From Acetobacteraceae bacterium (GTDB taxonomy: Bacteria > Pseudomonadota > Alphaproteobacteria > Acetobacterales > Acetobacteraceae): a DNA stretch of 45,281 nucleotides. How positions within the stretch are numbered: position 1 is the first letter of the stretch; every line of letters starts with the position of its first letter. Under the pieces are notes generated by a model that worked only from the letters and a program-made list of their open reading frames with translations, was not told where the DNA came from and searched no databases. The translations under genes were made by a program, and so were the position numbers. Where the stretch lies: the NCBI GenBank assembly GCA_027353465.1, contig DAIEHR010000247.1, positions 1 through 45,281 of the forward strand. The letters are read 5' to 3'. This document shows, piece after piece, positions 27,231 through 45,281 of the stretch.

Positions 27231-27248
27231 ACTAGCTTTCGAAATCGC

Positions 27249-27273: not shown

Positions 27274-27285
27274 ATACCCGGTGCC

Positions 27286-29010: not shown

Positions 29011-29042
29011 CAATCTGCCGTTAAAGAGGGCCACCTATGTCT

Positions 29043-29048
29043 ATTATA
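29043..29048 (-). promoter_or_regulatory. candidate -10 box of the chemoreceptor gene
   Basis: Perfect TATAAT on the minus strand; transcription would begin near 29036, leaving a 26-base leader before ATG 29010. No good -35 lies at standard spacing, so an activator may be needed. Confidence 0.45.
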
Positions 29049-29124
29049 GGCTGTATCGGGCCAATATAACCGATTCACGCAATAATTCGGGATTTTGTTA
29101 GGTTTGTGGCTCGAACATTGTCGG

Positions 29125-29183
29125 TGACCCGATTGCGCCAATGTGCGCCAGTTCCGCTCCAAGGGACCGCGCAATTCGGGTCC
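29125..29183. repeat. imperfect inverted repeat with 13-bp arms
   Basis: GACCCGATTGCGC (from about 29126) pairs with GCGCAATTCGGGTC (to about 29182), with one bulged base and about 31 bases between. A second pairing ACATTG/CAATGT overlaps the left arm, so alternative folds are possible. No T-run follows. Confidence 0.45.
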
Positions 29184-29218
29184 GAACGCCACGTTGTTGC
29201 GGTGCCGGCGCCCAACGA

Positions 29219-29262
29219 TGTCTGCCATTGGCGCTATCGAAGCTCAGCGCCAATGGCAGACA
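29219..29262. repeat. perfect 17-bp inverted repeat
   Basis: TGTCTGCCATTGGCGCT and AGCGCCAATGGCAGACA are exact reverse complements with a 10-base loop. No T-run follows on either strand. The gap lies after the purH stop on the minus strand, so this may block or stabilise the 3' end of the purH message, or be a repeat or MITE-like unit. Confidence 0.8.
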
Positions 29263-29356
29263 AACGGTGTCATACGGCTCGACACTTCCAAGCAATGGTT
29301 TTTAGATCAGCGCTTACGGGTTGATCCACTGCAATTGACTGGATCGAAACGCTCGC

Positions 29357-30931
29357 TCAGTGCCGAAAATGCCGCATCCCGGTAAACACCATCGCCAGCC
29401 CGGCCGCATCAGCCGCCGCGATCACCTCCGCATCGCGGATTGAACCGCCCGGCTGGATCACCGCCGTCGCCCCGGCCGAAACCGCAACCTCCAGGCCATC
29501 CGCGAATGGGAAGAACGCGTCGGACGCCACCACGCTGCCCTGAGTCAGCCGCTCCGGCAGCCCGGCCGTCTTCGCCGCTTCCTCGCTCTTCCAGGCCGCG
29601 ATCCGCGCCGAGTCCACCCGGTTCGGCTGTCCCCCGCCAATTCCCACCGTCGCGCCATCCTTGGCATAGACGATCGCGTTGGACTTCACATGCTTGCACA
29701 CCCGGAACGCAAACAGCAGGTCCGCCATCTCGGCATCCGAGGGCGCGCGCTTCGTAACCACCTGCAACGCGCTCGCCGCGACGCGTCCGGCGTCGCGCGT
29801 CTGCGCCAGGAACCCACCCGCAAGGCTGCGGAACGTCAGGCCGCCCGCCGCCGCATCCGGCATCCCGCCGGTCAGCAACAGCCGCAAATTCTTCTTGCGC
29901 GCCAGCACCGCCTTTGCCGCCTCATCCGCATCCGGCGCGATAATCACCTCGGTGAAAATCGCCGCGATCTTCTCCGCCGCCGCTGCATCCAGCGTCCGGT
30001 TCACCGCCACGATCCCGCCATAGGGCGACACCGGATCGCACCGGAATGCCGCGTCCCACGCATCGACCAGCCGCCCGGCCGAGGCCACGCCGCACGGCGT
30101 CGCGTGCTTAATGATCGCGATTGTCGGCGCCTCGAACTCCGCCACGCACTCGAACGCCGCATCAGTATCGTTCAGATTGTTATAGGACAGTTCCTTGCCC
30201 TGCACCTGCACCGCCGTCGCCACGCCAGGCCGGGTGCCGGACACATAGAATGCAGCCGCCTGATGCGGATTTTCGCCATACCGCAGCGTCTGGCGCAACG
30301 ACCCCGCGATGGTCAGACGCTTCGGGAAAGTCTCTTCGCGTTGCCCGGCGAACCACGCGCCGATCGCCGAATCATACGCCGCCGTCCGCGCATACGCCTC
30401 GCCCGCCAGCCGGCGGCGCAACGTCAGCGACGTGCCGCCCGACGCCTCGATCTCCTCCAGCACCGCCCCATACTGGTCCGGATCGGTCAGCACAGTCACG
30501 AAATCATGGTTCTTCGCCGCCGCGCGGATCAGCGCCGGGCCGCCGATATCGATGTTCTCGACGCAATCGTCGTACGGGGCGCCCTTGGCGACCGTTGCCT
30601 CAAACGGATACAGATTCACAGCCACCAGATCGATCGGGGCGATCCCGTGCGTCTTCATCTGCTCCATGTGTTCCGCCACGTCGCGCCGGCCCAGGATGCC
30701 GCCGTGGATCTGTGGCACCAGGGTCTTCACCCGCCCGTCCATGATCTCGGGAAACCCGGTGTGGTCGGACACCTCCTTCACCGGCACCCCCGCCTCGCGC
30801 AGCGCCTTCGCCGACCCGCCGGTGGACAGGATTTCCACCCCGCGCGCCGCCAAAGCCTTGGCAAACGGCACCAGGCCCGTCTTGTCGGAGACGGAGATCA
30901 GCGCCCGTCGGATGGAAACGATGTCGGTCAT
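29357..30931 (-). CDS. purH: bifunctional AICAR formyltransferase / IMP cyclohydrolase
   Basis: Catalyses the last two steps of purine synthesis (AICAR to FAICAR to IMP) in the cytoplasm. From ATG 30931 the protein is 524 aa, standard for PurH; the track adds a 31-residue leader. The N-terminal MGS-like cyclohydrolase domain is [32 protein letters not shown], with [16 protein letters not shown]. The transformylase domain holds [54 protein letters not shown] and [31 protein letters not shown]. All key motifs look intact. It is the last gene of a leftward group that starts at ugd. Confidence 0.97.
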
Positions 30932-30974
30932 GGCGGCGGAGTCCCGTGCTTGCTTCAAGCGCGGCGGGATAAAC

Positions 30975-32081
30975 CTACAAACCCAGCAGGTCCAGCGTCC
31001 GGGACAAGATCTTCGCCTCGTCATAGCAGTCCAGCGCCCGTTGCCGCCCTGCCCGCCCCATCCGAACCCGAAAATCGGGGTCGCGCACCAGTCGCCCGAG
31101 CGCCGAACCCAGGGCGGCGGGGTCGCCGGCAGGGACCTGGAAGCCAGTTTCGCCCTCGATCACCTGCTCAGCCGGCCCGCGCACGTTCGTGGCAACGACG
31201 GGCAAGCCGGTCAGCATCGCCTCGATCACCGACATCGGCAGCCCCTCGAACCGGCTGGGCAGCGTGAAAATGTCGGCGGCTGCCAGCAGCGCGGGAATAT
31301 CCGCCCGGTAGCCCAGCATCCGCAGGCGGTAGCCCAGCCCGGCGGAGCGCAGCAGTGCCGCCATATCCGCCCCCCGGTCGCTGTCCAGCCGTTCGCCTAC
31401 CACCCACAGTTCGGCCTCGGGCACGGCCCGCATTGCCGCCGCGAGTTCGGGGTATCCCTTGTGCCAAACCAGCCGGGACACGGCGATAATCACCACCCGG
31501 TCCCTCGGCACCCCCAGTTCCGCCCGTATCCGCTCCCGCGCCCATTGGTCGGGCCGGAACACGGCGGGGTTGCGGCCGTTGCGGATGGCCTCGGCATGCG
31601 ACGCGATGCCCAACCGCCTCGCATCGCGCGCCTCTGCCTCCGAAACGGTCATGAAAACGTCGGTGACCCGCGCCGCGCTCCACTCCAGCACGAACGACAG
31701 CCCACGCCGCGGCAGCGACGACGACGCATGGTTGAACAGGAACCCGTGGCAGGTATAGGCAACCTTCGGCACCCCGGCGATTCGCGCTGCCATGCGCGCC
31801 AGGAAACCGCTGATCGGCATGTGGGCATGTACCAGATCGGGCTTTTCGTCGCGCAGCAGCCTGACCAGCGACCAAAATGCCCGGACATGGGCCACGGGCG
31901 ACAAACGCCGCACGAACGGCACCGCGATCACCCGGAAGCCCTCCGCCCGGACATCGTCCAGCAACGGTCCCTCGGCGCATGCCCCGACAACCTCGTGGCC
32001 CCGTTCGCGAATGGCGCGCATCAGCGGCAGCAGGAAGTGCCGCAGCGAGAAATCGACATTGGTGATCTCGATGATCTTCAT
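30975..32081 (-). CDS. GT4-family glycosyltransferase
   Basis: A 368-aa GT-B fold, retaining glycosyltransferase acting at the inner face of the membrane. The N-domain has [31 protein letters not shown] and [32 protein letters not shown]; the C-domain has [14 protein letters not shown] and the donor-binding [40 protein letters not shown] (the E-x7-E motif). The sugar donor and acceptor are unknown, but UDP-glucose dehydrogenase nearby offers UDP-glucuronate and the rfb operon offers dTDP-rhamnose. The gene sits between the heparinase-like gene (16 bp) and purH (43 bp), interrupting an order I recall as rsmB-rpe-heparinase-purH. Confidence 0.92.
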
Positions 32082-32097
32082 CGCAGGCGGGACTCGT

Positions 32098-33708
32098 TCA
32101 CCCGGCCCGTTCGACCTTGCTTAGCGCCCATTTGATGTGCTGCGGGCCGTCGGCGAAGCCGGTCAACACGATCTGCTCGCCGCGCCTGGGTTCGGCGCCC
32201 CCCAGGTAAATCGTCTCTTCCAAATTCAGCCTGGCACCATCCGCGCGCAGCCGCCAGAACGTGCCTGATTTCAGTCGCAGCAGCACCGCGGCGCCGTCTT
32301 GCTGCACGCTGGCCTGCACGTCAGGATGGAGATGGAAGCGCAGCGTGAACGGCTGGCCCTCTTGCGCCTCGATCAGGTCCTCGCCACGGATGTCCTCGCC
32401 GCTTTCGGCCATATACAGCCGGCGCCTATGCACCGCATTAAACGTCTTGCGCCAGCCGTCATGCGAGACATCCAGCCAATGCGCCCCGGCGGCTTCCTGG
32501 CGGTTCACCTCCACCACCGTCGGGCGGCGCCCCAGACCTTCCGGCTTTAGCTCACTGCTATTCAAATCCCCGATCACCAGCGTCGAATGCGCCGCCGTCG
32601 CTCTTGCGGCATCGTGCCACTCCGGCGGGCCAGCCGGGAAGGCACCGCAATTGACGATCAACCGGTCGCGTCCGATCGACAACTCCATCGACAACGTCCC
32701 GGCATGCGCCAACCGATCGAGTCCCAAAGGCGCCGGCACGCCGCAATCCACGATCAGCACGCTGCGCCCTGCCTGCATACGGGTGAACCCGCCCTCGCCC
32801 AGCGCCGCAGGGCCACGCCCGCCGCGCCCCGCCTGGGTCAACACCAGATCAACCAGTGTCGCGGTTTCTTCCTTGCTGCCGTTGAACAGCGCCAAACCGC
32901 CATCACCGTGCCGCATCATCCGCAACGCGGGGGACATCCGCTCGATCGCGTGCGCCAGAACCGGCGGTGCAGGGGTCTGGGAGGTCTGAAACAGCGCTCG
33001 GATCTCCGTCAGGTCTTGCAACGCGGACAACTGGGCGGCCGGGCTACGTTCGGCGTGGCAACCATCGGGCAGGATCTGACGGGCAATCTCCTGCGGCAGG
33101 AACCGCAGCGCCCGGGTCAGGAAGCCGGCATGTTCGCGCAACGCCACGGCTGCCGCGACCAGGCCCTTCAGCGCGGTCAGTGCCCGCGCATCCAGTTCCT
33201 CGGCCGGCAGCGCCGCGGACAGGCCGCGCGCATCGGCCACCAGCCGGCTCATCAGCCGTTGCCGGAACACATCATCGGCTGTCGCGGCAAAGAAGTCGTA
33301 GTGCCCCAACCAGGCCGTGACCCGGGCGCCGACCACGTCGGGGCGATGCGCCACCGGGTCGGACGGCGGGTTCGCGATCCATTCCGCCACCAACCCCCTG
33401 GCGCGTAGCCGAGCGGCATCGGTTCCCAGTGCCCGCAGGTCGCGCAGCCAGGTAAACCCGTGCGCCCCGGACCGCCATACCGCCGAACCACCGAGTTGAT
33501 TCCAACCGCCCTGCCGCAGCGCTTGAACCGAACCGCCGATCTCCAATTCCCCTTTGATCAGCGCCGCCCCGCGCGTGGGGTCGCCCGGCCAGGGGTCGCG
33601 CACCGACAATGCGGGCGCATCTGGAACCCGGCCCATGCGCAGGCTGGGCAGGCGCGCCATCGCCCGCCGGGCGCCGCGCATGAACGACCGAGGCGTTGTC
33701 ACTGTCAC
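32098..33708 (-). CDS. heparinase II/III-like family protein
   Basis: A 536-aa protein with an N-terminal helical toroid (WLRDLRALGTDAARLRARGLVAEWIANPP, LPQEIARQILPDGCHAERSPAAQLSALQDL) and a C-terminal beta-sandwich typical of heparinase II/III-like lyases (VDCGVPAPLGLDRLAHAGTLSMELSIGRDRLIVNCGAFP, AHSTLVIGDLNSSEL, LRFHLHPDVQASVQQDG). No signal peptide is seen, unlike true heparinases. The family is conserved next to rsmB/rpe/purH in alphaproteobacteria; a role in breaking or editing an acidic polysaccharide is inferred, not shown. The start overlaps the rpe stop by 4 bases. Confidence 0.9.
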   Translation of the reverse strand: MTVTTPRSFMRGARRAMARLPSLRMGRVPDAPALSVRDPWPGDPTRGAALIKGELEIGGSVQALRQGGWNQLGGSAVWRSGAHGFTWLRDLRALGTDAARLRARGLVAEWIANPPSDPVAHRPDVVGARVTAWLGHYDFFAATADDVFRQRLMSRLVADARGLSAALPAEELDARALTALKGLVAAAVALREHAGFLTRALRFLPQEIARQILPDGCHAERSPAAQLSALQDLTEIRALFQTSQTPAPPVLAHAIERMSPALRMMRHGDGGLALFNGSKEETATLVDLVLTQAGRGGRGPAALGEGGFTRMQAGRSVLIVDCGVPAPLGLDRLAHAGTLSMELSIGRDRLIVNCGAFPAGPPEWHDAARATAAHSTLVIGDLNSSELKPEGLGRRPTVVEVNRQEAAGAHWLDVSHDGWRKTFNAVHRRRLYMAESGEDIRGEDLIEAQEGQPFTLRFHLHPDVQASVQQDGAAVLLRLKSGTFWRLRADGARLNLEETIYLGGAEPRRGEQIVLTGFADGPQHIKWALSKVERAG

Positions 33709-34376
33709 GCCCCTCCGCGCAGTTCAGCGATCGCGGCGGCATAATCGGCCGCGCGGAACACCGATGTGCCGGCGATCAACGTGTCCGCCCCCGCCGCCAG
33801 TGCCAAGGGCGCCGTGACCGCGGTGATCCCGCCATCCACCGCCAGCGCGACTGGATGGTCCGCCGCATCGATCATCCGCCGCAGTTGCGCGATCTTGGGC
33901 AATTGCGAGGTCAGAAATCCCTGCCCACCAAAACCCGGGTTCACCGACATCACCAGTACGATATCGATCAGGTCCAGGGCCCACGTGATCGACTCCGGCG
34001 CGGTGGCCGGGTTCAGCACCACGCCTGCCTTCTTCCCGGCTTTGCGGATGTGCTGCAACGACCGGTGCAAATGCGGCCCGGCTTCGGGATGCAGGCTGAT
34101 ATGGTCGGCGCCCGCATCGATGAACGCATCCAGATAGACATCCACCGGGGCGATCATCAGATGCACGTCGAACGGCAATTTTGTGTGCTTGCGCAACGCC
34201 GCCAGCACGGTTGGGCCGTAGCTGATATTCGGCACGAAATGGCCGTCCATGATGTCGAGATGCAGCCAATCGGCTCCAGCCGCCTCGATCGCGCTGACTT
34301 CTTCCCTCAGCCGCCCGAAATCGGCGGCCAGCAGGCTTGGGGCTATTGTGACGTGCCGGGACTCGCGAGCAACCAT
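33705..34376 (-). CDS. rpe: ribulose-phosphate 3-epimerase
   Basis: Interconverts ribulose-5-phosphate and xylulose-5-phosphate in the pentose-phosphate and Calvin pathways. It is a TIM barrel of 223 aa with family motifs in order: IAPSLLAADFGRLREEV, GADWLHLDIMDGHFVPNISYGP (metal-binding His and catalytic Asp), DVHLMIAPVD, GADHISLHPEAG, VLVMSVNPGFGGQGF, and VDGGI followed by GADTLIAGTSVF. ATG 34376 may be a few residues upstream of the true start, since homology begins at VTIAPSLL. It overlaps the heparinase-like gene. Confidence 0.96.
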   Translation of the reverse strand: MVARESRHVTIAPSLLAADFGRLREEVSAIEAAGADWLHLDIMDGHFVPNISYGPTVLAALRKHTKLPFDVHLMIAPVDVYLDAFIDAGADHISLHPEAGPHLHRSLQHIRKAGKKAGVVLNPATAPESITWALDLIDIVLVMSVNPGFGGQGFLTSQLPKIAQLRRMIDAADHPVALAVDGGITAVTAPLALAAGADTLIAGTSVFRAADYAAAIAELRGGA

Positions 34377-34437
34377 GTCATGTTTCTAGCCACCGGGACC
34401 GATGTCACACAAGGTGACAAAGGTCTTCTGGGTCAGA

Positions 34438-35673
34438 TCACGCCTTGATCATCCGCGCGGCGAAGAAGCCATCCATCCCGCCTTTGTCCGCCCAAAGCCC
34501 CGGATGGGTGTGCAGAAACCCTTCCGGCGTGCGTGCTTGCGGGATCGCGGCCAGTTCCTCCACCGAGAATGGATCATGCTTCAGCCCGAATGCAGCCGCG
34601 GCGGCAACCCGCGGCGCCCCTTCCTCCGGCTGCAGGGAACACACCGCATACACTAGCCGGCCACCAGGCCGCAGCATAGAAGCAGCCGATTCCAATAACT
34701 TATCCTGCGCCTGAGTCACCGCTTGCACGTCGCGCGGGCGCTTCAGCCGAACAACATCGGGATGGCGGCGGATCGTGCCGGTGGCGCTGCACGGGGCATC
34801 CAGCAGAATCGCGTCGAACAGCGCCGGCGGGGTCCAATCTGTCGCGTCCGCGTTGATCACGTCCGCGTGAAGGCCCCATCGTTTCAGGTTTGCCGTCAGC
34901 CGCTCGATTCGCGCGGCATCCCGCTCCAACGCGGTCACAACCGAACCGGCCGCCGCCAGTTGCGCGGTCTTGCCCCCTGGCGCGGCGCAAAGATCGGCAA
35001 TCCGTTCGCCAGGCCGGGGCGCGAGCAGCATTGCGGGTAGTGCCGCGGCGGCATCCTGAACCCAAACATCGCCCGCCTCGAATCCCGCGATGTCAGACAC
35101 CCGCGTGCCGGCCGGGAACCGGACCGAACCGGTGGGCAGCAGCAGGCCGCCCTCGGGCACAGAGCCACCCGGCTTCAGTGTAACGTCCAGCGGTGCCTCA
35201 TGTTGATGCGCAATGGCAATGGACCGCGCCAGCTTCCCCCACGACGTCCACAACCACGCTGGAGTATCCAGACGCGCCGCGTCCAGCTCTCCCATGGCTT
35301 CGGCGCCGGCTGTCGCGACCTTGCGCAGCACCGCGTTCACCAGCCCGGCAAACGGAGCCAATCCCCGCCGCTTGGCCAACGCGACCGCCGTCGCCACCGC
35401 CGCGTGGCTGGGCGTGTCCAGCAGCAGCAGTCCCGCCGCTCCGATCCGCAGCACGTTACGAACCGGCTCCGGCGGCTCTTTCCGCAGAAACGGTTCCAGG
35501 ACAGCGTCCAGCGTTCCCATCCGCCGCAGCACCGCAGCCGCCAGCCTATGGGCTGCCGCCCGATCGCGCGCATCCTGCGCCGGCAGCGCGCCCAGCGCGT
35601 CTTCCAACGTGCGGTGCCGTTCCAGAACCGCCGTCAGCAGATCGAACGCGGATTCTCTCGTCGGATCAGCCAT
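34438..35673 (-). CDS. rsmB: 16S rRNA (cytosine-967-C5)-methyltransferase family protein
   Basis: A 411-aa SAM-dependent RNA methyltransferase. Residues about 1-130 form an RNA-binding NusB-like helical domain (ESAFDLLTAVLERHRTLEDAL). The catalytic domain has LCAAPGGKTAQLAAAG (SAM site), VINADATDW, LLDAPCSATGTIRRHPDVVR, and YAVCSLQPEEG. The two Cys (DAPCS and VCSLQPEEG) are the catalytic pair of C5-methyltransferases. Its ATG overlaps the ugd stop (TGATG). Other NSUN-type targets are possible, but the NusB domain favours RsmB. Confidence 0.93.
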   Translation of the reverse strand: MADPTRESAFDLLTAVLERHRTLEDALGALPAQDARDRAAAHRLAAAVLRRMGTLDAVLEPFLRKEPPEPVRNVLRIGAAGLLLLDTPSHAAVATAVALAKRRGLAPFAGLVNAVLRKVATAGAEAMGELDAARLDTPAWLWTSWGKLARSIAIAHQHEAPLDVTLKPGGSVPEGGLLLPTGSVRFPAGTRVSDIAGFEAGDVWVQDAAAALPAMLLAPRPGERIADLCAAPGGKTAQLAAAGSVVTALERDAARIERLTANLKRWGLHADVINADATDWTPPALFDAILLDAPCSATGTIRRHPDVVRLKRPRDVQAVTQAQDKLLESAASMLRPGGRLVYAVCSLQPEEGAPRVAAAAAFGLKHDPFSVEELAAIPQARTPEGFLHTHPGLWADKGGMDGFFAARMIKA

Positions 35674-36992
35674 CAGACCGGCAACGCCGCTCGGCCAATA
35701 CCATAGTACTCGAAACCGGCCTCGCGCATCGCGTGCGGGTCATAGACGTTGCGCAGGTCAACCAACACCCTGCCCCGCATCGATTCTCTCAATTTCATCG
35801 GCGACATCGCTCGGAATTCATTCCATTCCGTAATCAAAACCAGCGCGTCGGCACCCGAGACGGCATCGAACGCATCGCTACAATAATGAACAGACTCCGG
35901 TAGCAATGGCCGAGCCTGCTGCATTCCTTCGGGATCGAACGCGCGAATGACGGCGCCGTCGCCCGCCAGACGGGACACGATGGACAGCGACGGCGAATCC
36001 CGCATGTCGTCGGTTTCCGGCTTGAACGTCAGTCCTAGGACGGCAATGGTTTTGCCGCGCACCGATCCGCCGCACGCCGAGATCACCCGCATCGCCATGC
36101 TGGATTTGCGGGCGTCGTTGACCGCGACGGTTGCCTCGACCAGGCGGGAGGGCGCGCCGTAGTCCTGCGCCGTCCGCACCAGCGCCAAGGTGTCCTTGGG
36201 GAAACAGGACCCGCCGTAACCCGGCCCCGGATGAAGGAATTTGCGCCCGATGCGGCCGTCCAAGCCGATGCCGCGGGCAACATCGTGGATGTCCGCCCCA
36301 ACCTTCTCGCACAAATCGGCCATCTCGTTGATGAACGTCACCTTCATGGCCAGGAAGGCGTTAGCGGCGTATTTGGTCAATTCGGCGGTTTCGATCGCGG
36401 TGAACACGATCGGCGCCTCGATAAGATACAGCGGGCGATACAGCCGGCGCATCACCTCTCTCGACCGGTCTGACTCCGCGCCGATCACCACCCGATCCGG
36501 TCGCATGAAGTCACCGATCGCATTGCCCTCGCGCAGGAACTCGGGATTAGAGGCGACATCGAAATCGAGATCCGGACGAGCAGCCCTGACGATTTCCTGA
36601 ATCCGCCGGCCAGTGCCGACCGGCACCGTCGATTTCGTCACGATCACCGCGTAGCCGGTCAGTGCCTTGGCCACCTGTTCGGCCGCCGCATAGACATATG
36701 TCAGGTCGGCATGGCCATCGCCCCGCCGCGTCGGCGTGCCGACCGCGATGAACACGGCTTCCGTCCCGTCCACAGCGGCGGCCAGGTCGCCGGTAAAGGC
36801 CAGCCGGCCGGCCTTGACGTTGTCCGCAACCAACTGTTCCAGGCCGGGTTCGTAGATTGGCATCCGGCCGGCCCGCAGCGCCGCCAGTTTGTCGGAGTCG
36901 GTTTCCACCACCGTGACTTCAGTGCCGAATTCCGCGAAACAGGCGCCGGATACCAGCCCGACATAGCCGCCGCCGATCATCGTAATACGCAC
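35673..36992 (-). CDS. ugd: UDP-glucose 6-dehydrogenase
   Basis: Oxidises UDP-glucose to UDP-glucuronate with two NAD+ for capsule, exopolysaccharide or LPS. The 439 aa match the family. Motifs include ITMIGGGYVGLVSGACFAEFG (NAD), AVFIAVGTPTRRGDGHADLTYVYAA, KSTVPVGTGRRI, NPEFLREGNAIGDFM, the catalytic Cys in GPGYGGSCFPKDT, and GLTFKPETDDMRDSPSL. The start is GTG 36992 with a GAGGAA ribosome site; an internal ATG lies four codons in. It is the first gene of the leftward group rsmB-rpe-heparinase-GT4-purH and diverges from the Gfo/Idh gene. Confidence 0.96.
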   Translation of the reverse strand: MRITMIGGGYVGLVSGACFAEFGTEVTVVETDSDKLAALRAGRMPIYEPGLEQLVADNVKAGRLAFTGDLAAAVDGTEAVFIAVGTPTRRGDGHADLTYVYAAAEQVAKALTGYAVIVTKSTVPVGTGRRIQEIVRAARPDLDFDVASNPEFLREGNAIGDFMRPDRVVIGAESDRSREVMRRLYRPLYLIEAPIVFTAIETAELTKYAANAFLAMKVTFINEMADLCEKVGADIHDVARGIGLDGRIGRKFLHPGPGYGGSCFPKDTLALVRTAQDYGAPSRLVEATVAVNDARKSSMAMRVISACGGSVRGKTIAVLGLTFKPETDDMRDSPSLSIVSRLAGDGAVIRAFDPEGMQQARPLLPESVHYCSDAFDAVSGADALVLITEWNEFRAMSPMKLRESMRGRVLVDLRNVYDPHAMREAGFEYYGIGRAALPV

Positions 36993-37170
36993 GTTCAGGT
37001 TCCTCTGCGCGAATGTATGGGGGATTCAGCACATGGCGGCGCCAGTTTCCAGCCACTAACCGAACAGGCTGGACGGAACCGCCCACGCGCGCCCTCTTGA
37101 CATTCGCAACGCGTCTTATGTCTGGCATGATTATCGTCTATGACGGTGATTTCGTGTGCCGAGGATTACC

Positions 37171-38178
37171 ATGCCGGAAACAGTGCTGCGGGTCGGAATC
37201 GCGGGGGCGGGCCATTTCGGCCGTTATCACGCCCTGAAGGCGGCCGCCGGATCGCGAACCGTGCTGACCGGCATCTATGATCCCGACCTGGAGCGGGCGA
37301 AGACCGTAGGCTGGGAAGCTGGCGCCAAGGAAATGGGATTCGATGAGTTGCTGAACGCATCGGACGCCATCATCGTCGCCGCCCCGGCCGAGGCGCACTA
37401 CGACCTGGCGGCGCGGGCGCTGCGCGCCGGCAAGCATGTGCTGGTCGAGAAACCAATTGCCGCCACGCTGGAACAGGCGGACGAGCTGGGACGGCTGGCC
37501 AAAATGCACAATCTGGTGCTGCAGGTCGGCCATCTGGAGCGATTCTCCGCCGCCTATCAAGCGATGGCCGGCAAGATCGGCGCACCTCTCTATATCGAGG
37601 CCACCCGCATCGCCCCATTCAAGCCGCGCGGCACCGATGTCTCGGTGATACTGGATCTGATGATCCACGATCTGGACCTGGTTCTGGCGCTGATCGACAG
37701 CGAGATCGAAAGCGTTGACGCCGTCGGTGCCCCTGTCGCAAGCCCGCATGAGGACATCGCCAACGCCCGTCTTCGCTTCGTCAACGGGGCGGTGGCAACC
37801 ATCACCGCCAGCCGCATTTCGCCGCGGACCGAGCGCCGTATGCGGATTTTCGCCCAGAATTCATATATGGCCGCCGATTTCGCCGCCCGCAAACTAACCG
37901 TGATCGCCCGGTCGTCCGACGCCGCGGGCGCCCTGCCGCCCGGCCAGCAACCGGTGCCCGGCGTGGCCGGCTTCGGCATCGCGGACGTGTCGTGGGAGGA
38001 TCATGATTCGCTTGCCGCCGAACACGCGGCCTTCGCGGCGTCGGTGCTGGATGGCGTTCCGGTACTGGTCGATGCAACGGTGGGCCGCCGGGCACTGGCG
38101 GCGGCCCTGGCGGTTGGCGAGGGGATGCGGGCGTCGCGGGAACGGATGGCGGCGTCTGGCTTGATTACCCAGGCGTAG
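37171..38178 (+). CDS. Gfo/Idh/MocA family oxidoreductase
   Basis: A 335-aa NAD(P)-dependent sugar dehydrogenase type. The N-terminal Rossmann motif is LRVGIAGAGHFGRYHALKAA, followed by AIIVAAPAEAHYDLAARALRAGKHVLVEKPIA (the EKP motif), VGHLERFSAAYQAM and VILDLMIHDLDLVLALI. The last segment resembles oxidoreductases acting on UDP-amino sugars (such as GnnA-type enzymes in lipid A diamino-sugar formation); that is only a suggestion. ATG 37171 has GAGG 6-7 bases upstream and is preferred over the track GTG at 37156. It is convergent with the dienelactone hydrolase gene, 9 bp apart. Confidence 0.88.
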   Translation: MPETVLRVGIAGAGHFGRYHALKAAAGSRTVLTGIYDPDLERAKTVGWEAGAKEMGFDELLNASDAIIVAAPAEAHYDLAARALRAGKHVLVEKPIAATLEQADELGRLAKMHNLVLQVGHLERFSAAYQAMAGKIGAPLYIEATRIAPFKPRGTDVSVILDLMIHDLDLVLALIDSEIESVDAVGAPVASPHEDIANARLRFVNGAVATITASRISPRTERRMRIFAQNSYMAADFAARKLTVIARSSDAAGALPPGQQPVPGVAGFGIADVSWEDHDSLAAEHAAFAASVLDGVPVLVDATVGRRALAAALAVGEGMRASRERMAASGLITQA

Positions 38179-38187
38179 CCGCCGGCG

Positions 38188-38928
38188 TCACCCCAACCGG
38201 CGCCGATACAGCGCGATCAGCCGCTCCCAATGCCGTTCGGCCGCCGGTTTGTCGTAACACCAGCGGCTGGGGAAGGCGAAGCCATGATGGACTTCGGGGT
38301 ACATTTCCAGTTCCCCATCGTTGCCGGAGGCTTCGAACAGCGCCTTCAGTTCCGCCACCATGGGCAGCGGCGCAAGCTCGTCGTGTTCCGCGCAGCCGAT
38401 GTAGAGTTCGCCCTTCGCCTTCGCGAGTGTCAGGTGAGGGCTTTCCTCGTTCTCGCTGACCAGCCAGGTGCCGTAATACGACGCGGCGGCGGCGACCCGA
38501 TCTGGAAAGCGGGCGGCAGCGGCCAGGGCATAGGGGCCGCTCATGCAATACCCGTGCGTCCCGACCACGCCCTTTTTAGCTGCCGGTTGCGTGTCCGCGA
38601 ACGCCAGCATGTCGGCGAAATCCTCCATGACCGGCGGGATCGTCATCCTGGTGCGCACCGCCCGCATGCGGGCCTGTTCGGCGCTGCCCTTCGTCGTCAC
38701 ATCGGGCCCGTATTTCGTGTCCTTACCCGCTCGGTAATACAGGTTCGGCAACAGCACGTAGTAACCCACGGTGCCGAGGCGCCGGGCCATGTCGTAGAGC
38801 TCTTCGCGGATGCCCGGCGCGTCCATCATCATGACCACGACCGGATGCGGGCCGCCCCTGTCCGGATGCACGATAAATGTCTCCATCGCGCCAGATCGGG
38901 TTTGGATGTCGCGGATATCTTCGATCAT
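38188..38928 (-). CDS. dienelactone hydrolase family protein
   Basis: A 246-aa alpha/beta hydrolase of the DLH type. The nucleophile is Cys in GTHGYCMSGPYALA, with a catalytic Asp in GCAEHDELAP and His in YPEVHHGFAFPSR. VVMMMDAPGIREELYDMARRLGTVGYYVLLPNLYYR is typical of the family. True dienelactone hydrolases open chlorocatechol lactones; most genomic homologues have unknown esterase activity. It lies 56 bp after the ribokinase gene, same strand, so it may belong to that transcript. Confidence 0.9.
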   Translation of the reverse strand: MIEDIRDIQTRSGAMETFIVHPDRGGPHPVVVMMMDAPGIREELYDMARRLGTVGYYVLLPNLYYRAGKDTKYGPDVTTKGSAEQARMRAVRTRMTIPPVMEDFADMLAFADTQPAAKKGVVGTHGYCMSGPYALAAAARFPDRVAAAASYYGTWLVSENEESPHLTLAKAKGELYIGCAEHDELAPLPMVAELKALFEASGNDGELEMYPEVHHGFAFPSRWCYDKPAAERHWERLIALYRRRLG

Positions 38929-38984
38929 TGGCGTATTCCCCGTGCTTGTCCCGATCGTTCCACGGGATCGGCATCAGGACAAGT

Positions 38985-39872
38985 TCAGGCCGCCAGGAAC
39001 GCGTCCGTTTCGGCTGCCGTTGGAATGCTGCCCTGGCTGCCCAGCCGCGTGCAGCACAGCGCCGCTGCTGCCGACGCGCGCCGCACCGCCGCCCGCAACG
39101 AAGCCCCGCGATCCAGGTGGTTGGCCAAGACGCCGACGAAACAGTCGCCCGCCGCCGTGGTGTCGGCCACGTGGATCGCCACCGCTGGTTCGTGCCAGGC
39201 CCCGTCTTGGCTGGCGATATCGGCTCCCTCCGAACCACGTGTCCGCACCACGGCTATGCCGCCCAACCGAGCGGATAACGCCGCCGCTGTGGCACCGCAG
39301 TTCAGATGCGCCGCCAGCCACATGCCCTCGGTTTCATTCACCACCAGCACATCGACCGCCCGCAACGTATCCTCGGGCAGTGCCGAGGCCGGGGCCAGGT
39401 TCAACACGATCTTACTGCCAGCCGCACGGGCACGCTTGATCAGAGTGATGTTCTCCCCGGCTGGCACTTCCATCTGCAACACCGCCGTGGTGCCAGCCCC
39501 CAGCAATCCGTCCAACACCTGCCCCGCATGCGTTGTCAGATTGGCACCGGAGCCGACCGCGATCGCATTTTCCCCGTTCGGATCAACCGAGATCGCCGCG
39601 CAACCCGTGCTGGCATCCACAGTCTGAACGCACCCCAGATCCACGCCGGCCCCGCGCAGCAGCGCCAGTGCGCCATCCGCCAGCGCATCGCGTCCCACCG
39701 ATCCAATCATGGTCACGCGGCCCCCGTCACGCGCGGCAGCGACAGCCTGGTTCGCCCCTTTGCCGCCCGGTTCTATCCGCGTGGACGGACCCAGGACCGT
39801 TTCGCCCGGCCGGGGAATGTGCGGCAGGCTGAAAATCAGATCGAGGTTGATGGAACCGAACACGACGATCAT
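38985..39872 (-). CDS. rbsK: ribokinase (PfkB family)
   Basis: ATP-dependent sugar kinase of 295 aa, with the PfkB signatures IEPGGKGANQAVAAARDGGRVTMIGSVGRDALAD near the N-terminus and VADTTAAGDCFVGVLANHLDRG near the C-terminus. FGSINLDLIFSLPHIPRPGET at the start is ribokinase-like. The anion-hole motif reads DTTAAGD, as in many ribokinases. No ribose transporter is adjacent, so the substrate may be another sugar. ATG 39872 overlaps the histidine kinase stop (ATGA), an unusual pairing. Confidence 0.91.
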   Translation of the reverse strand: MIVVFGSINLDLIFSLPHIPRPGETVLGPSTRIEPGGKGANQAVAAARDGGRVTMIGSVGRDALADGALALLRGAGVDLGCVQTVDASTGCAAISVDPNGENAIAVGSGANLTTHAGQVLDGLLGAGTTAVLQMEVPAGENITLIKRARAAGSKIVLNLAPASALPEDTLRAVDVLVVNETEGMWLAAHLNCGATAAALSARLGGIAVVRTRGSEGADIASQDGAWHEPAVAIHVADTTAAGDCFVGVLANHLDRGASLRAAVRRASAAAALCCTRLGSQGSIPTAAETDAFLAA

Positions 39873-41776
39873 CGGCTAACATCCACCCGCTCGGGTTCCC
39901 GCCGCACCACCCGCTCCGCCGGTAGATAGACGGTCGCTGTTGTACCCCGGCCCTTGGCGCTGGAGAGTTCCAGCCTGCCGCCATGCAATACCGCCAGCCT
40001 GTGGGCCAGTGGCAAACCGAGGCCGGTACCCTCGAAAGACCGCGACAAGCTGCTTTCAACCTGGCCGAACGGTTCCATAGCGATGGCGATCTCCGCCTCG
40101 GTCATGCCAATGCCGGTATCGGTCACGGAAAATACCAATCCTCCGGTTGCGGAAATCGACGCCGCCAGAACGATGCGCCCGTGGGCGGGAGTGAACTTCA
40201 CCGCATTTGACAACAGGTTGATAAGCACCTGCAACAGGCGCATCCGGTCGCCGCGCAACCGCACAGTCGTCTTGGGTAGTTCCAACGCCAACGCGATATC
40301 CCGCGCGTCCGCCTGTGACCGAACCGAAACCAGGCTGGCACGCGCCAGTTCGGCGACCGGAAACACCGTCTCGCTCAACGTAGCCGTGCCCGACTCAACT
40401 TTGGAAATATCCAGGATCGTGTTGATCAGTTCCAGCAAATGCCGCCCGGAACCCAGAATATCGCCCGCATACTCGGCGATGGGCGGCGATCCGGGCTTCA
40501 TCGGCGCCTGCTGCTGGATCAGCTCAGAGAACCCGATGATCGCGTGCAGCGGGGTCCGTAACTCGTGGCTCATATGTGCCAGGAACTGGGCCCGAGCCTG
40601 GTTGGCGGCTTCGGCGATTTCCTTGCTGGCGAGCAGTTCGCGGCTGGTTTCGGCCAGCCTGGTGCGATCCGCTTCGATCTGCGACCGCGCCGAACGCAGT
40701 TGGTCCCGGTCATAGGCGAGATCGATTTCGCGCTTGGTACGACGCCTCACCTCGCGCATCAGCAACAGCGAGAGAATGGCAATCAATCCGGTGGCACCGA
40801 CCCCAACCAGGCTGATCAGCCAGATATGGACACGGGCCGACCCCAACACATCGTCCAGGTCCAGGGCCACCAGCACCCGGAGATTGTATCGCTCCAGCCG
40901 GTGGATCGTGATCATCCGGTCAATTTTGATAATACGGCCACGGCGGTTGAACACGACGGTCTGACCGGGAGCGATCGACTCGGGGTAGACATCGCCGCGT
41001 AGATCGATGCCGATCCCAAACTTTCCCGGCTGGTCATTCAGCCCGAAGCCTGCCCGAACGACGCCGCTTTCATCCGTTATGGCGATCGCACCGCGACGGC
41101 CAAGGTCGATCTGCCGGAACAGGGTCAACAGTGAGGCGGGCTTAAGCAATAGGATCGCTTCTCCGGCAAAGTGCGCGTCAGCCGTTTCCAACCGGCGGCT
41201 AACCTGGAACAGTTGCCCCACCGAGCCGGCTGAATAAGGGGCGATCGCCATCGCCGTCGATGGATCATCGCGGTGCGCGACGAAAGATGGTTCTGATCCC
41301 GGATCGGCCGGTGCGGGATCGGGATGGAGCGTGCTGAGCAGTTGCCGACCATCGGCCCCCACAATCCGCACGTCGATAGAGCCGCCCGCGATGCCCGCGA
41401 CAACCGGCTGAAGATCGGCGGCGATTTGGTTCTGTGGCGCCGTTCGGACAGTCTGTGCGATAGCGGTCAGCGCCGCGTTGGCGGAATCAAGCTGGTTCGT
41501 CAGGTCCAGCGAGAAAGCCGCGGCGAGGTTATAGCCCTCGATTCTGCCAACAGCCTGGGCGCTGGTATATTCTGACCAAAGCGACCAGCCGACAAATGCC
41601 CACATCCCCGCGGCGAGACAAACCGCGAGCAGAACTATCTTACGAATCACCCGCGCCGACTGACGCTTTGCACGTCCTTCGAAGCGGTCGGCGCGCTCCG
41701 CGCCTGCGTCGGCTGCGTGGCGCTGCACAGGGGTTGCAGCTTGAATCATGTCAGCCGGTTTGTGATTGAACGACAC
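39869..41776 (-). CDS. membrane-bound sensor histidine kinase
   Basis: A 635-aa kinase with TM1 at about 44-65, a periplasmic sensor of about 250 residues (PDC/dCache-like; IDVRIVGADGRQLLSTL, IAITDESGVVRAGFG) and TM2 at about 316-340. A coiled coil (341-395) and HisKA with phospho-acceptor His about 404 (FLAHMSHELRTPLHAIIGFSELI) follow, then a HATPase domain with NLLSNAVKFTP, DTGIGM and GTGLGLPLAHR. It phosphorylates a response regulator; none is encoded nearby, so it is an orphan kinase. Start GTG 41776 (track); ATG 41749 is possible. Confidence 0.92.
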   Translation of the reverse strand: MSFNHKPADMIQAATPVQRHAADAGAERADRFEGRAKRQSARVIRKIVLLAVCLAAGMWAFVGWSLWSEYTSAQAVGRIEGYNLAAAFSLDLTNQLDSANAALTAIAQTVRTAPQNQIAADLQPVVAGIAGGSIDVRIVGADGRQLLSTLHPDPAPADPGSEPSFVAHRDDPSTAMAIAPYSAGSVGQLFQVSRRLETADAHFAGEAILLLKPASLLTLFRQIDLGRRGAIAITDESGVVRAGFGLNDQPGKFGIGIDLRGDVYPESIAPGQTVVFNRRGRIIKIDRMITIHRLERYNLRVLVALDLDDVLGSARVHIWLISLVGVGATGLIAILSLLLMREVRRRTKREIDLAYDRDQLRSARSQIEADRTRLAETSRELLASKEIAEAANQARAQFLAHMSHELRTPLHAIIGFSELIQQQAPMKPGSPPIAEYAGDILGSGRHLLELINTILDISKVESGTATLSETVFPVAELARASLVSVRSQADARDIALALELPKTTVRLRGDRMRLLQVLINLLSNAVKFTPAHGRIVLAASISATGGLVFSVTDTGIGMTEAEIAIAMEPFGQVESSLSRSFEGTGLGLPLAHRLAVLHGGRLELSSAKGRGTTATVYLPAERVVRREPERVDVSR

Positions 41777-41838
41777 TCGCTCTGTTCATCGTAACGAATG
41801 AGTCCGGCCAATCATACAACGGAGATTCACGCGATTGC

Positions 41839-42726
41839 CTAAACCTCCGACAGGAAGCTCCGCACGTCTCGCAGAAAGACCTCTAATTGATCATGATGAA
41901 CCCAATGCCCGGCCTTTTCCACCGCCAGCACGCGGGCATTATTGAAGTATTCCAGCCGCCCGTCCTCGGCCGGGTTTGTCGCCCAGCTTTCCGTCCCATA
42001 CACCAGCAAGGTCGGGCAGGTGATCGACGACCAGAGTTCGGCGATCGACTCCCGCGTCATGTCATAGGGCGGCCACAGCCGAACGTAATGGTCGAACTTC
42101 CAGCTATAGGTGCCGTCCTCGTTCTGGTTAACCCCGTATTGCGTCAGATGCCGGGCCTGCCGCGGCGTCAGATGCTTGTTCTCCTCCTGCATCCGGGCAT
42201 AAGCGGCCTCCATGGTGGGATATCGGCGCGGCTGCCGGCCGGAGTTCGCCCGCTGCATGTCGATCCAGTTGCGCATCCGCTGGCCGATCGGGTGGCGATC
42301 CGAGACCGCATCCTGGCGCGGACCAGGACCAAGCCCCTCGATGGCGACGATCTTGCGTACGGTCTCCGGATAGATTCCGGTGTAGCGCAACGAGATGTTG
42401 CCCCCCAGTGAGTGGGAGACGATCGTCACCGGCGCCAGTTTCTGCTGATGGATCAGTTGCGCCAGATCGTAGATGTAGTTGGCCATCGTGTATTGGCCGG
42501 AGGCTGACCACGCGGAGTCACCATGTCCGCGCAAATCCGGCGCTATGACATGGTAATCCTTCCGCAGGTCCGCCGCGACCCAGTCCCAGTTGCGGCAATG
42601 GTCGCGCCCGCCGTGCAGCAGGATCAGCGGCGGGGCGTCCGGATTGCCCCAATCGACGTAATGCAGCCGCAGCCGCTGGGAGAAATAGATCCGAGAGGTG
42701 GGGCCAGATTCAGGCAGCATGGTCAT
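41839..42726 (-). CDS. alpha/beta hydrolase
   Basis: A 295-aa hydrolase. The oxyanion-loop region LILLHGGRDHCRNWDWVAADLR and APDLRGHGDSAW precede the nucleophile Ser in IVSHSLGGNISLRY; the catalytic His is in EKAGHWVHHDQLEVFL. It resembles epoxide hydrolase/haloperoxidase-like esterases and lactonases; the substrate is unknown. It starts 9 bp after the amidase stop and so forms the third gene of that operon, suggesting consecutive hydrolysis of an amide/ester compound (inference). Confidence 0.9.
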   Translation of the reverse strand: MTMLPESGPTSRIYFSQRLRLHYVDWGNPDAPPLILLHGGRDHCRNWDWVAADLRKDYHVIAPDLRGHGDSAWSASGQYTMANYIYDLAQLIHQQKLAPVTIVSHSLGGNISLRYTGIYPETVRKIVAIEGLGPGPRQDAVSDRHPIGQRMRNWIDMQRANSGRQPRRYPTMEAAYARMQEENKHLTPRQARHLTQYGVNQNEDGTYSWKFDHYVRLWPPYDMTRESIAELWSSITCPTLLVYGTESWATNPAEDGRLEYFNNARVLAVEKAGHWVHHDQLEVFLRDVRSFLSEV

Positions 42727-42735
42727 GGTTACCGT

Positions 42736-44130
42736 TCAACCGATCGGGGGCTTCTTCTTGTGCCAGCCGGTCGCGCGTTCATATGCCGCGGCGACGCGCA
42801 GCACGGTGGCGTCGTCGAAGTAGCGCCCGACGAACTGCACCGATACGGGCAAGCCCGCCTGCGTCAGGCCCGACATCATCGCCAGCGCGGGATGCCCGGT
42901 GACATTGAACGGGGTACGTGCCTGGCGCGGATAGGTGCGCGCGGTTTCATCCGGATCGTCCATCCGGCTAGATGGGTCCATCGAGCTGGCACACAGCAGC
43001 ACGTCGTAATCCCGCAGCCGGTCTTCGACCTCGGCGATGACCTGACCCCGGCGGCGTTGCGCGCCGACATAGTCGCCCGCCGTCATGAACGCACCCGGCA
43101 ACAGCCGGCGACGGGCGAGCTGGCCGTAATCGCCTGGGCGTTCGCGCAGCCAGGGTGCGTGGATCGACCACGCCTCGCTACACAGGATCACCCGGTTGAT
43201 TCCAGCGAATTCGGTCAATGCCGGCAGGGTCACGGTGTGGACCTGCGCGCCCTCGGCTTCCAGCACACGGGCGACGTGTTCCAGCGCGGCGGCGACCTCG
43301 GGATGCGCCGGCAGGTCGCGTTCGTGGAAATGCCGGACGAAACCGATGCGCAGGTCGCGCACACCGCGGTCCAGAAACCGGCCGAAGCCTCTGGCCTGGG
43401 TGGCGGCACTGCCGGGGTCGGCGGGGTCATGGCCGGCGATCACATCCAGCAGCAGCGCGTTATCGGCGACGGTGCGGGTCAGCGGGCCGACATGGTCCAG
43501 AGTGAACGACAGCGGGAACACGCCGCGCCGCGACACCAGCCCATAGGTCGGCTTCAACCCGACGATACCGCAGGCGCTGGCCGGATTGCGAACCGACCCG
43601 CCGGTGTCGGTGCCAAGCGCCAGCGGGAACAGCCCCGCCGCCACGCCGGCCCCGGACCCGGAGGACGAACCGCCCGGATGGTGATCGGGATTCCACGGAT
43701 TGCGCGCTGGCGGAAACGGCAGATCGAAACTGGGGCCGCCAATGGCGAACTCATGCGTGGACAGCTTGCCCATGACGATCGCGCCCGCCGCACGCAGCTT
43801 CTGGATAACGGCAGCGTCCGCCTTGGCGACATTGTCCACCAGTATCTTGGAGTGGCCTGTGGTTGGCAGCCCGGCGACGTCGATAATGTCCTTGATACCA
43901 ACCGGCACGCCGTGCAGCCGTCCGCGTGACTGGCCTGCCGCGATTTCGGCTGTCGCCTGTTCGGCAGCGCGCATCGCCCCCTCGGCATCCAGCCGGATAA
44001 ACGCGTGCAGTTTCGGATCCAACTTGCCGATCCGTTCCAGCAGCGCTTTCACCAATTCGACCGGTGACAGTTCCTTCGCCGCATAGGCGCTGGCGATCTG
44101 GCTGGCCGACAGCCAGTGCGCCGCGCTCAT
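42736..44130 (-). CDS. amidase (amidase signature family)
   Basis: A 464-aa Ser-cisSer-Lys amidase. The catalytic Lys is in GVPVGIKDIIDVAGLPT, the glycine/serine signature is HHPGGSSSGSGAGVAAGLFPLALGTDTGGSVRNPASACGIVGLKPTYG with the cis-Ser and nucleophile Ser, and the C-terminal SMDPSSRMDDPDETARTYPRQARTPFNVTGHPALAM is typical. Similar enzymes include GatA-like and AtzE-like hydrolases. ATG 44130 overlaps the stop of the small upstream gene (ATGA) and replaces the longer track start at 44160. Substrate unknown. Confidence 0.93.
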   Translation of the reverse strand: MSAAHWLSASQIASAYAAKELSPVELVKALLERIGKLDPKLHAFIRLDAEGAMRAAEQATAEIAAGQSRGRLHGVPVGIKDIIDVAGLPTTGHSKILVDNVAKADAAVIQKLRAAGAIVMGKLSTHEFAIGGPSFDLPFPPARNPWNPDHHPGGSSSGSGAGVAAGLFPLALGTDTGGSVRNPASACGIVGLKPTYGLVSRRGVFPLSFTLDHVGPLTRTVADNALLLDVIAGHDPADPGSAATQARGFGRFLDRGVRDLRIGFVRHFHERDLPAHPEVAAALEHVARVLEAEGAQVHTVTLPALTEFAGINRVILCSEAWSIHAPWLRERPGDYGQLARRRLLPGAFMTAGDYVGAQRRRGQVIAEVEDRLRDYDVLLCASSMDPSSRMDDPDETARTYPRQARTPFNVTGHPALAMMSGLTQAGLPVSVQFVGRYFDDATVLRVAAAYERATGWHKKKPPIG

Positions 44131-44327
44131 AGGCCGATCCCCGCGCGCATCGGCGGCCATGGCTCCGCCGCCGGATCGGTCGGCACCTTCACCGCGCCAG
44201 CATTGTTCAACGCCTGCGCGGCGGCGGCGGCCACATCATCAGGAAATTGGACGAGCGCCTTTTCCAGGCCGGCGGCTTTCGCCAGGGCGATGACTATTGG
44301 ATCCACGGCTGCGCGCTCCACGATCAT
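44127..44327 (-). CDS. small AtzG/GatC-like protein upstream of amidase
   Basis: A 66-aa protein: a helical N-terminal half (MIVERAAVDPIVIALAKAAGLEKALVQFPDDVAAAAAQALNNAGA), then an extended tail (TDPAAEPWPPMRAGIGL). This helix-plus-extended-tail plan, and ATGA coupling directly before an amidase, match small partner subunits such as AtzG (AtzE partner) and GatC (GatA partner). Sequence identity with AtzG is not certain from reading alone. ATG 44327 has no good Shine-Dalgarno site; CGCACCGCAC precedes it. Confidence 0.6.
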   Translation of the reverse strand: MIVERAAVDPIVIALAKAAGLEKALVQFPDDVAAAAAQALNNAGAVKVPTDPAAEPWPPMRAGIGL

Positions 44328-44410
44328 TGTGCGGTGCGATCATGCGTCCGGTTAGACCGCTGGGAAAGAGGCACCGTCACCAAAGCCATCGACAGGCCAC
44401 CGTTTTGCGA

Positions 44411-44451
44411 TAAAAAAAGGGCGGTGCGACCGGGGGATGGGCCGCACCGCC
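44411..44451 (-). terminator. strong intrinsic terminator (leftward)
   Basis: Read leftward: GGCGGTGCGGCC, loop CATCCCCC, GGTCGCACCGCC, then CTTTTTTTATC. The 12-bp stem has one G-U pair and the T-run has seven T. It terminates leftward transcripts upstream of the AtzG-like gene, not at the end of a known gene, which implies an RNA starting just to its right. Confidence 0.82.
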
Positions 44452-44530
44452 TAGAGGTTGTCGCACGCTGTGTGGTGCGACTTTCGGGGAGGAAACAGGA
44501 CACCGCCATAACGGCGCCGAAACTCTATGT
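44411..44530 (-). ncRNA. candidate ~120-nt small RNA (or leader/attenuator)
   Basis: The interval between a perfect TATAAT (44542-44537) and the strong terminator has no reading frame of note. In the RNA direction it holds an unpaired CUGUUUCCUCCCCGAAAG with an anti-Shine-Dalgarno-like CCUCCCC, a hairpin GUCGCAC/GUGCGAC with 8-base loop (44481-44460), and the terminator stem with a C-rich loop (CAUCCCCC). Exposed C-rich motifs are common in alphaproteobacterial sRNAs that block ribosome sites. Alternatively it is the 5' leader of the amidase operon, ended by attenuation 84 bases before its first ATG. No Rfam family is recognised by eye. Confidence 0.55.
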
Positions 44531-44536
44531 AGTCCC

Positions 44537-44542
44537 ATTATA
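44537..44542 (-). promoter_or_regulatory. perfect -10 box for leftward transcript
   Basis: TATAAT on the minus strand; a start is expected near 44530. No good -35 is present at 16-18 bases; instead the CtrA-type box abuts it directly. Confidence 0.55.
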
Positions 44543-44557
44543 TTAACGAAGGGTTAA
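44543..44557. promoter_or_regulatory. CtrA-type binding box TTAA-N7-TTAA
   Basis: TTAACGAAGGGTTAA is a full match to the alphaproteobacterial CtrA consensus (TTAA, seven bases, TTAA). It is palindromic in its half-sites, so both strands fit. It touches the leftward -10 box and lies 67 bp upstream of the rightward CoA-transferase ATG, so it could govern either. By eye it is the only full match in the window. Confidence 0.55.
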
Positions 44558-44623
44558 CAAGGCCGTGTCCGCACCGATTTTTTTGCTCGCAAACCTGTAT
44601 TTCTCAACCATGGGTGGTGGGAA

Positions 44624-45281
44624 ATGACGAATCTTCCCCTGACTGGTCTCAAAATTCTGGAAATCGGCCATTATATCGCCGCCCCGTTCTGTACGCGCAT
44701 CCTGGCGGATCTTGGCGCCGAGGTGATCAAGCTGGAGCCGCCGGGAGGCGATCCGTTCCGTGGTTGGGGCGCGGCCAAGGACGGCAACTCTGTGTGGTTC
44801 AGCATTCATGGGCGCAACAAGCTGTCCATCGAACTGGATCTGAAGAAAGACCGCGATACCGTCCTGAAGCTCGCTGCTCGGGCGGACGTGCTGGTGGAAA
44901 ACCTGCGCGCCGGCCAGTTGGAGCGGCTGCGGCTGGGGCCGGACGAACTGCATGCGGTGAACCCAAGATTGGTGATCGCCCGCATCTCCGGCTACGGCCA
45001 GGATGGCCCGTATCGCGACAAGCCGGCGTTCGGCGCGATCGGCGAGGCGATCGGCGGGCTGCGCCACCTGACGGGTCATCCCGGCGGTACCACCGACCTG
45101 CCGCCGCCGCGCTGCGGGATTTCGATCAGCGACGATCTGGCGGGACTTTATGCGGCGATCGGGCTGCTGTCCGCCGTGTGGCAGCGCGACGGCATGGGCA
45201 CCGGCAAGGGCCGGGTGGTCGATGTCAACCTGGTGGACAGCGTGTTCAGCCTGATGGAGGGTATGCTGCCAGAATACGCGA
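44624..45281 (+). CDS. CaiB/BaiF family III CoA-transferase (3' end missing)
   Basis: Not in the ORF track because it has no stop in the window; 219 codons are present of about 400. It starts MTNLPLTGLKILEIGHYIAAPFCTRILADLGAEVIKLEPPGGDPFRGW, the classic family III opening, followed by NKLSIELDLKKDRD, LAARADVLVENLRAGQLERLRLGPDEL, ISGYGQDGPYRDKPAFGAIGEAIGGL and GISISDDLAGLYAAIGLLSAVWQRD. The Asp of ISISDDLAG lies in the region of the catalytic Asp. The enzyme moves CoA between carboxylic acids; the acid is unknown. The ribosome site GGTGGTGGG precedes ATG 44624; a 5-codon frame (ATG 44610) ends with ATGA overlap at this start. Confidence 0.93.
   Translation, partial: MTNLPLTGLKILEIGHYIAAPFCTRILADLGAEVIKLEPPGGDPFRGWGAAKDGNSVWFSIHGRNKLSIELDLKKDRDTVLKLAARADVLVENLRAGQLERLRLGPDELHAVNPRLVIARISGYGQDGPYRDKPAFGAIGEAIGGLRHLTGHPGGTTDLPPPRCGISISDDLAGLYAAIGLLSAVWQRDGMGTGKGRVVDVNLVDSVFSLMEGMLPEYA

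Follow-up and report, generated by a model that had tools for sequence, protein, structure and literature searches.

The gap between a CoA-transferase gene and an AtzG-like open reading frame (ORF) in the window, i.e., the whole stretch of 45,281 nucleotides analyzed here, very probably contains a stand-alone, conserved RNA gene of an undescribed Acetobacteraceae family. The best explanation of the whole is a trans-acting sRNA of ~109 nt, which would be transcribed from a CtrA-type promoter and whose core would block ribosome-binding sites (RBSs) of the GGGAGGAAAC type; in this complete form, the proposal is considered quite likely. Its observed basis is a conserved gene with a covarying structure, a near-invariant core, a conserved box, and independence from the neighboring genes. 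The features of the locus are as follows.

44624..45280, plus strand: CoA-transferase family III (CaiB/BaiF-type) gene (PF02515, E 4e-72), divergent, running off the window
44543..44557, minus strand: CtrA-type box TTAACCCTTCGTTAA (TTAA-N7-TTAA), at a near-fixed position in orthologues
44537..44542, minus strand: TATAAT; TTTTGG, TTATGG, TTTCTT, etc. in relatives
44526..44531, minus strand: -10-like hexamer TACATA (TAnnnT in relatives), T-A columns nearly invariant
44412..44520, minus strand: predicted sRNA gene, ~109 nt, three hairpins (fold z = -5.45, covariation, family-wide covariance-model matches)
44499..44518, minus strand: hairpin 1, 8 bp, 4-nt loop; 97.3% of cells paired
44484..44500, minus strand: near-invariant single-stranded core UCCUGUUUCCUCCCCGA; invariant columns in the 28-sequence alignment
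44460..44481, minus strand: hairpin 2, 7 bp; 99.5% of cells paired; no counterpart in αR8 RNAs
44412..44451, minus strand: intrinsic terminator, 12-bp stem plus T7, C-rich loop CAUCCCCC
44127..44327, minus strand: AtzG-like ORF, 66 aa; AtzG lies downstream in some genomes only
42736..44160, minus strand: amidase (AtzE/GatA-like) gene (PF01425, E 2.6e-110)

Fold, covariation and spread of the RNA gene

To the left of the element, the AtzG-like ORF, which has no match in Pfam or NCBIfam, the amidase gene, and an alpha/beta hydrolase gene follow on the same strand; a sensor histidine kinase gene (HisKA, HATPase_c; 39869-41776) adjoins the amidase and alpha/beta hydrolase genes. The leftward unit from TATAAT to terminator that an earlier note had placed at 44542-44411 was found, with ~85 nt and hairpins in between. 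Both its exposed CCUCCCC stretch and its stable hairpin are present: in the predicted fold, UCCUGUUUCCUCCCC is exposed between hairpins 1 and 2, and the fold of 44520-44412 is far beyond that of shuffled sequences (-50.2 kcal/mol versus -32.8 ± 3.2, z = -5.45), with none of 200 shuffles being equally stable. The same holds for the 141-nt piece (z = -4.3; 0/200 shuffles equally stable). The textbook terminator of the earlier note, with its 12-bp stem and seven T, corresponds to a stem at 44451-44420 and a T run at 44418-44412, and it is far stronger than any other of the six terminator-like sites in 26000-45281. In most close relatives, UCCCCC(GG) is conserved in the terminator loop (44444-44436), which may possibly constitute a second pairing site.

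The RNAalifold consensus yields the same three hairpins as the single-sequence fold. Paired cells amount to 96.8%, shuffles giving 87.9%; for covariation, a score of 0.348 contrasts with 0.176 ± 0.011, and none of 500 shuffles reaches any of the five structure measures; sliding the partners by 1-3 columns as a control leaves 32-53% paired. Double-sided changes with the pair kept in at least one sequence are seen at 12 of the 23 pairs. In hairpin 1, a CG/GC exchange at one pair is found in 11 of the 27 distinct sequences; hairpin 2 has double-sided changes in four of its seven pairs, with the forms GUCGCGC/GCGCGAC and GUCACGU/ACGUGAC replacing each other, and the terminator in six of nine modeled pairs. 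The conservation of the stems in relatives, by which the earlier note had proposed to judge the element, thus extends to all three hairpins, which are kept and covary. Coding in small overlapping ORFs is disfavored, because the loop lengths of the orthologues vary by numbers of bases that are not multiples of three. Orthologues share descent, and the counts for structure as well as those for the box given below do not represent independent events.

The element is single-copy in its own genome. In a DNA search of 145 genomes, most members of the genus yielded an orthologue; these are 70-90% identical and share an unaltered core. The element occurs in 28 of the 33 genus genomes examined; no copy was detected in the other five, one of them having been searched with the covariance model. 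This model, R1, was built from the 28 sequences (alignment A1). At E <= 0.01 it matches 97 of 398 Acetobacteraceae genomes, a number to be read as an upper bound, with matches below ~30 bits being in part cross-matches to RF00519 (e.g., G008:C28, G030:C79, and G035:C56); at 37 bits or more, ~37 of the family genomes in 16 genera are left. In a class-wide set of 385 genomes, which includes the own one, R1 matches 13 of the remaining 384, none above 29.2 bits; these were rejected as true members, two of 11 inspected being RF00519 and most others being devoid of a recognizable core. The Rfam scan that the earlier note had suggested was run, and no family reaches its gathering threshold within the window, CcsR1, tfoR, and suhB being sub-threshold only; the RNA is, thus, absent from Rfam. 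The 15-mer TCCTGTTTCCTCCCC did not occur in the literature searched.

Promoter region and independence from neighboring genes

The perfect TATAAT on which the earlier note had based its promoter is present, but the aligned relatives differ at this position, and it is probably not the promoter. A conserved TAnnnT is situated 11 bases downstream of it, and the most conserved upstream element is TTAACCCTTCGTTAA, which was absent from the earlier note. Since it is TAnnnT at 44531-44526, and not TATAAT, that is conserved, transcription would probably start near 44519 and give an RNA of ~109 nt. The TTAACC-N5-TTAA box starts 26 nt upstream of the conserved TAnnnT. Its match is unique in the 45-kb window, where 0.01 would be expected, and in the 64 bases around the RNA start, TTAA-N7-TTAA is matched with no or one mismatch by 31 of the 57 orthologues and candidates, compared with ~2 in shuffles. 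The box is most likely part of the RNA gene rather than of the CoA-transferase gene, the usual upstream neighbor of the element across orthologues, because loci that lack this neighbor (L066, L067, L087, L088, L090, and L101) retain the box with one or two mismatches.

TTAA-N7-TTAA is the full motif of the cell-cycle regulator CtrA in Caulobacter, where it is activating when its 5' base is at about -39 (PMC4287350). If 44531 is taken as -12, the 5' base of the box would be at about -38 here, a geometry as in CtrA-activated promoters. The genome also encodes a CtrA-like protein (G000:C236:3244-3912) with approximately 55% identity to Caulobacter CtrA; it scores 342.9 bits against NCBIfam NF045991, for which the cut-off is 350, the next family following at 157. 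Control of the RNA gene by CtrA is regarded as moderately probable.

An attenuated leader of the AtzG-amidase operon, which was the alternative raised in the earlier note, would use the same promoter, with the terminator as a conditional stop before AtzG. Such a reading would accommodate the start of AtzG on the same strand ~85-250 nt after the terminator in the window and in many relatives, as well as the recurrence of the order CoA-transferase gene, element, AtzG in distant genera (L058, L059, and L062). It is opposed by the synteny, insofar as a same-strand structural gene is not retained wherever the element is kept and unrelated, often convergent genes follow the element in many orthologues: an alpha/beta hydrolase gene (L011, L013, and L014), convergent atpC (L025 and L026), a convergent FAD-binding protein gene (L030), and genes for enolase (L050), tmk (L052), DUF815 (L055), a 3-hydroxyisobutyrate dehydrogenase-like protein (L057), or the outer-membrane efflux protein OEP (L087 and L088). 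Among the genes in opposite orientation are those for enolase, tmk, atpC, and OEP. Convergent genes a few bases past the terminator cannot be leader-controlled. In addition, conservation in the alignment of relatives drops directly after the T run, and no competing antiterminator pairing is apparent in either fold or consensus. With the element persisting in the absence of the amidase, attenuation was rejected as very unlikely. An intergenic terminator with repeat-like hairpins and no regulatory function is less probable still; terminators in intergenic gaps are common, yet this would not account for the double-sided covariation in three hairpins, for an unpaired core that hardly varies, or for a promoter box kept in position. 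The small-RNA reading of the earlier note is borne out by the covarying hairpins, the near-invariant core, the conserved promoter element, and the variety of downstream genes. Characteristics of trans-encoded sRNAs, namely an own promoter and an own terminator, as judged by sequence, as well as compensatory structure with an unpaired conserved seed, are found in the element.

Past the terminator, by ~15 nt, CTGTCGATGG is located at 44386-44395, and TGTCGAT or TCTGTCGA recurs 3' of the element in 11 loci of the closest clade, being doubled in L013 and L020. The motif could be a repeat, or it could serve the next operon as a promoter or binding element.

The core and its relation to αR8 and other RNAs

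The stretch GUUUCCUCCC(C), with GUUUCCUCCC at 44496-44487, is near-invariant and located between hairpins 1 and 2; 45 of the 57 orthologues and candidates have the nine bases UUUCCUCCC (exact TTTCCTCCC) without any change. In genus g34 (L060, L062, and L063), where the element lies between CoA-transferase and AtzG genes, the core has drifted to GGACUCCUCCCCU. With UUUCCUCCCC, the window shares nine of ten bases with the anti-Shine-Dalgarno (anti-SD) 10-mer UUUCCUCCCU of the αR8 RNAs (suhB/MmgR/SisA-D, RF00519), the exact 10-mer being altered here by one base. In Caulobacter, UUUCCUCCCU is the base-pairing seed of SisA-D; that of SisA represses many mRNAs, with Hfq helping and the sponge CrfA counteracting (PMC12559287). 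The element resembles αR8 RNAs in its intergenic location, in a length of ~75-110 nt, in the intrinsic terminator at the 3' end, and in an internal, single-stranded anti-SD 10-mer following a hairpin. It differs from them in the additional covarying 7-bp hairpin between core and terminator, where αR8 RNAs have a short linker, as well as in the flanks of the core, the conserved CtrA-type box, and the lack of an RF00519 match: none was obtained up to E 10 on 44100-44900, and none at gathering (41 bits) in the window.

RF00519 itself is represented in the genus by separate copies, often in tandem (up to three, G010:C4), with the invariant stretch CUUUCUUGGACGUUUCCUCCCUAAACU (L231-L250). They carry the same 10-mer, while the stretch around the core and the upstream DNA differ from those of the element. 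Because genuine RF00519 copies are separate in the genus, and because of the extra hairpin and the different promoter, the element is most likely not an RF00519 member, although it would work like an αR8 RNA. Descent from αR8, with a hairpin gained between seed and terminator in a diverged member, would be compatible with the proposed mechanism and is regarded as a plausible, if less favored, origin. The order of hairpin 1, GUUUCCUCCC, CU-containing linker, and GGCGG terminator is shared, and the likeness is clearest in orthologue L033, which reads GUUUCCUCCCCGAU, hairpin 2, AAACUUUGGGCGG where αR8 copies have GUUUCCUCCCUAAACUU followed by CGGCGG. On nine orthologue loci, RF00519 scores best on the same L033, at a sub-threshold 22.4 bits, and model R1 in turn cross-matches RF00519 members. 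The failure of RF00519 to match the window element up to E 10 speaks against such a descent, as do the differences of the genus's separate RF00519 copies in invariant stretch and upstream DNA; a nine-base anti-SD core could also be convergent.

Other known RNAs are more distant. CcsR1 (RF02791), with a C-rich CCUCC motif, scores best among the Rfam families on the window element (19 bits, E 0.055; cut-off 65.3), but in the model of that family CCUCCUCCC is in the 3' hairpin loop, whereas the core is between hairpins here. tfoR (RF02100) likewise has hairpins and then a terminator with a C-rich loop, and scores 26.6 bits on orthologue L027; the cut-off is 70, the family is by description a regulator of tfoX in Vibrio cholerae, and there is no common core. 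EcpR1 and GspR of Sinorhizobium are alphaproteobacterial trans-sRNAs linked to the cell-cycle circuit (PMC4414408, PMC7143759). Their targets are dnaA, gcrA, or ctrA mRNAs, in contrast to the direction from CtrA to the sRNA gene that would apply here, and EcpR1 consists of two stem-loop domains with another conserved loop.

Proposed mode of action and candidate targets

Transcription would run from ~44519 to the intrinsic terminator, the -35 region being covered by the CtrA-type TTAA-N7-TTAA box. The core UCCUGUUUCCUCCCC would be held open by hairpins 1 and 2 for pairing with Shine-Dalgarno regions of the GGGAGGAAAC type, by which translation would be blocked. Target mRNAs would probably be destabilized, as by the same 10-mer of Caulobacter SisA and other αR8 RNAs, and Hfq would probably take part. 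From the observed features we infer expression, CtrA control, use of Hfq, and repression. An anti-SD mechanism is likely, and the pairing of the C-rich stretch with ribosome sites that had been suggested in the earlier note is consistent with the near-invariant anti-SD core.

The pattern GGGAGGAAAC-N0-5-ATG is found at ~four genes per genus genome, and the reversed pattern is almost absent. Because GGGAGGAAAC is a strong RBS of a generic, common type, its occurrence alone is not target evidence. In the own genome, genes with this RBS encode an SMP-30-like protein, an MFS transporter, another CoA-transferase, and pufM; those sampled in relatives, assigned by eye except for pufM, are mostly SDR proteins, CoA-transferases, ABC substrate-binding proteins, MFS transporters, and enoyl-CoA hydratases. 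It is hypothesized that these genes, mostly of uptake and of organic-acid or acyl-CoA catabolism, may be among the targets. In two species of the genus (L135, G000:C409:18737; L265), the RBS of pufM is GGGAGGAAACAATG. Since pufM is present in these two, at least some members of the genus carry photosynthesis genes, and pufM may possibly be a target. With two mismatches allowed, the 14-mer complement occurs 36 times in the own genome versus 12 times for the reversed control, few of the sites being just before a start codon. Two other candidate groups were discarded: phasin mRNAs, considered by analogy to MmgR, have RBSs without a match, and extended-seed targets with GGAGGAAACAGG before ATG are found in five of 32 genomes versus two of 32 for the scrambled control.

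Alternatively, the RNA could act as a decoy or sponge, its core binding G/A-rich regulatory RNAs of the CrfA kind and, thus, shielding αR8 RNAs instead of acting on mRNAs. Caulobacter CrfA pairs with the αR8 10-mer (PMC12559287), for which a near-identical 10-mer could compete; such a role is nevertheless held to be unlikely, and blockage of GGGAGGAAAC-type sites is the preferred reading.

The element would give the Acetobacteraceae a new sRNA family, one that neither Rfam nor the literature searched contains; in that literature, riboregulation in this bacterial family appears to be little studied. The anti-SD seed of the αR8 RNAs is, herewith, seen in another scaffold as well, and a link from CtrA to post-transcriptional control is suggested, which can be put to the test. 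Tentatively, the Acetobacteraceae would have evolved an sRNA in which CtrA controls a new scaffold of three hairpins that carries the αR8 seed, so that one seed would act on overlapping uptake and catabolism mRNAs with two independent inputs. If the gene is driven by CtrA, cell-cycle state could tune the same pool of mRNAs in addition to the signals that act on the αR8 copies.
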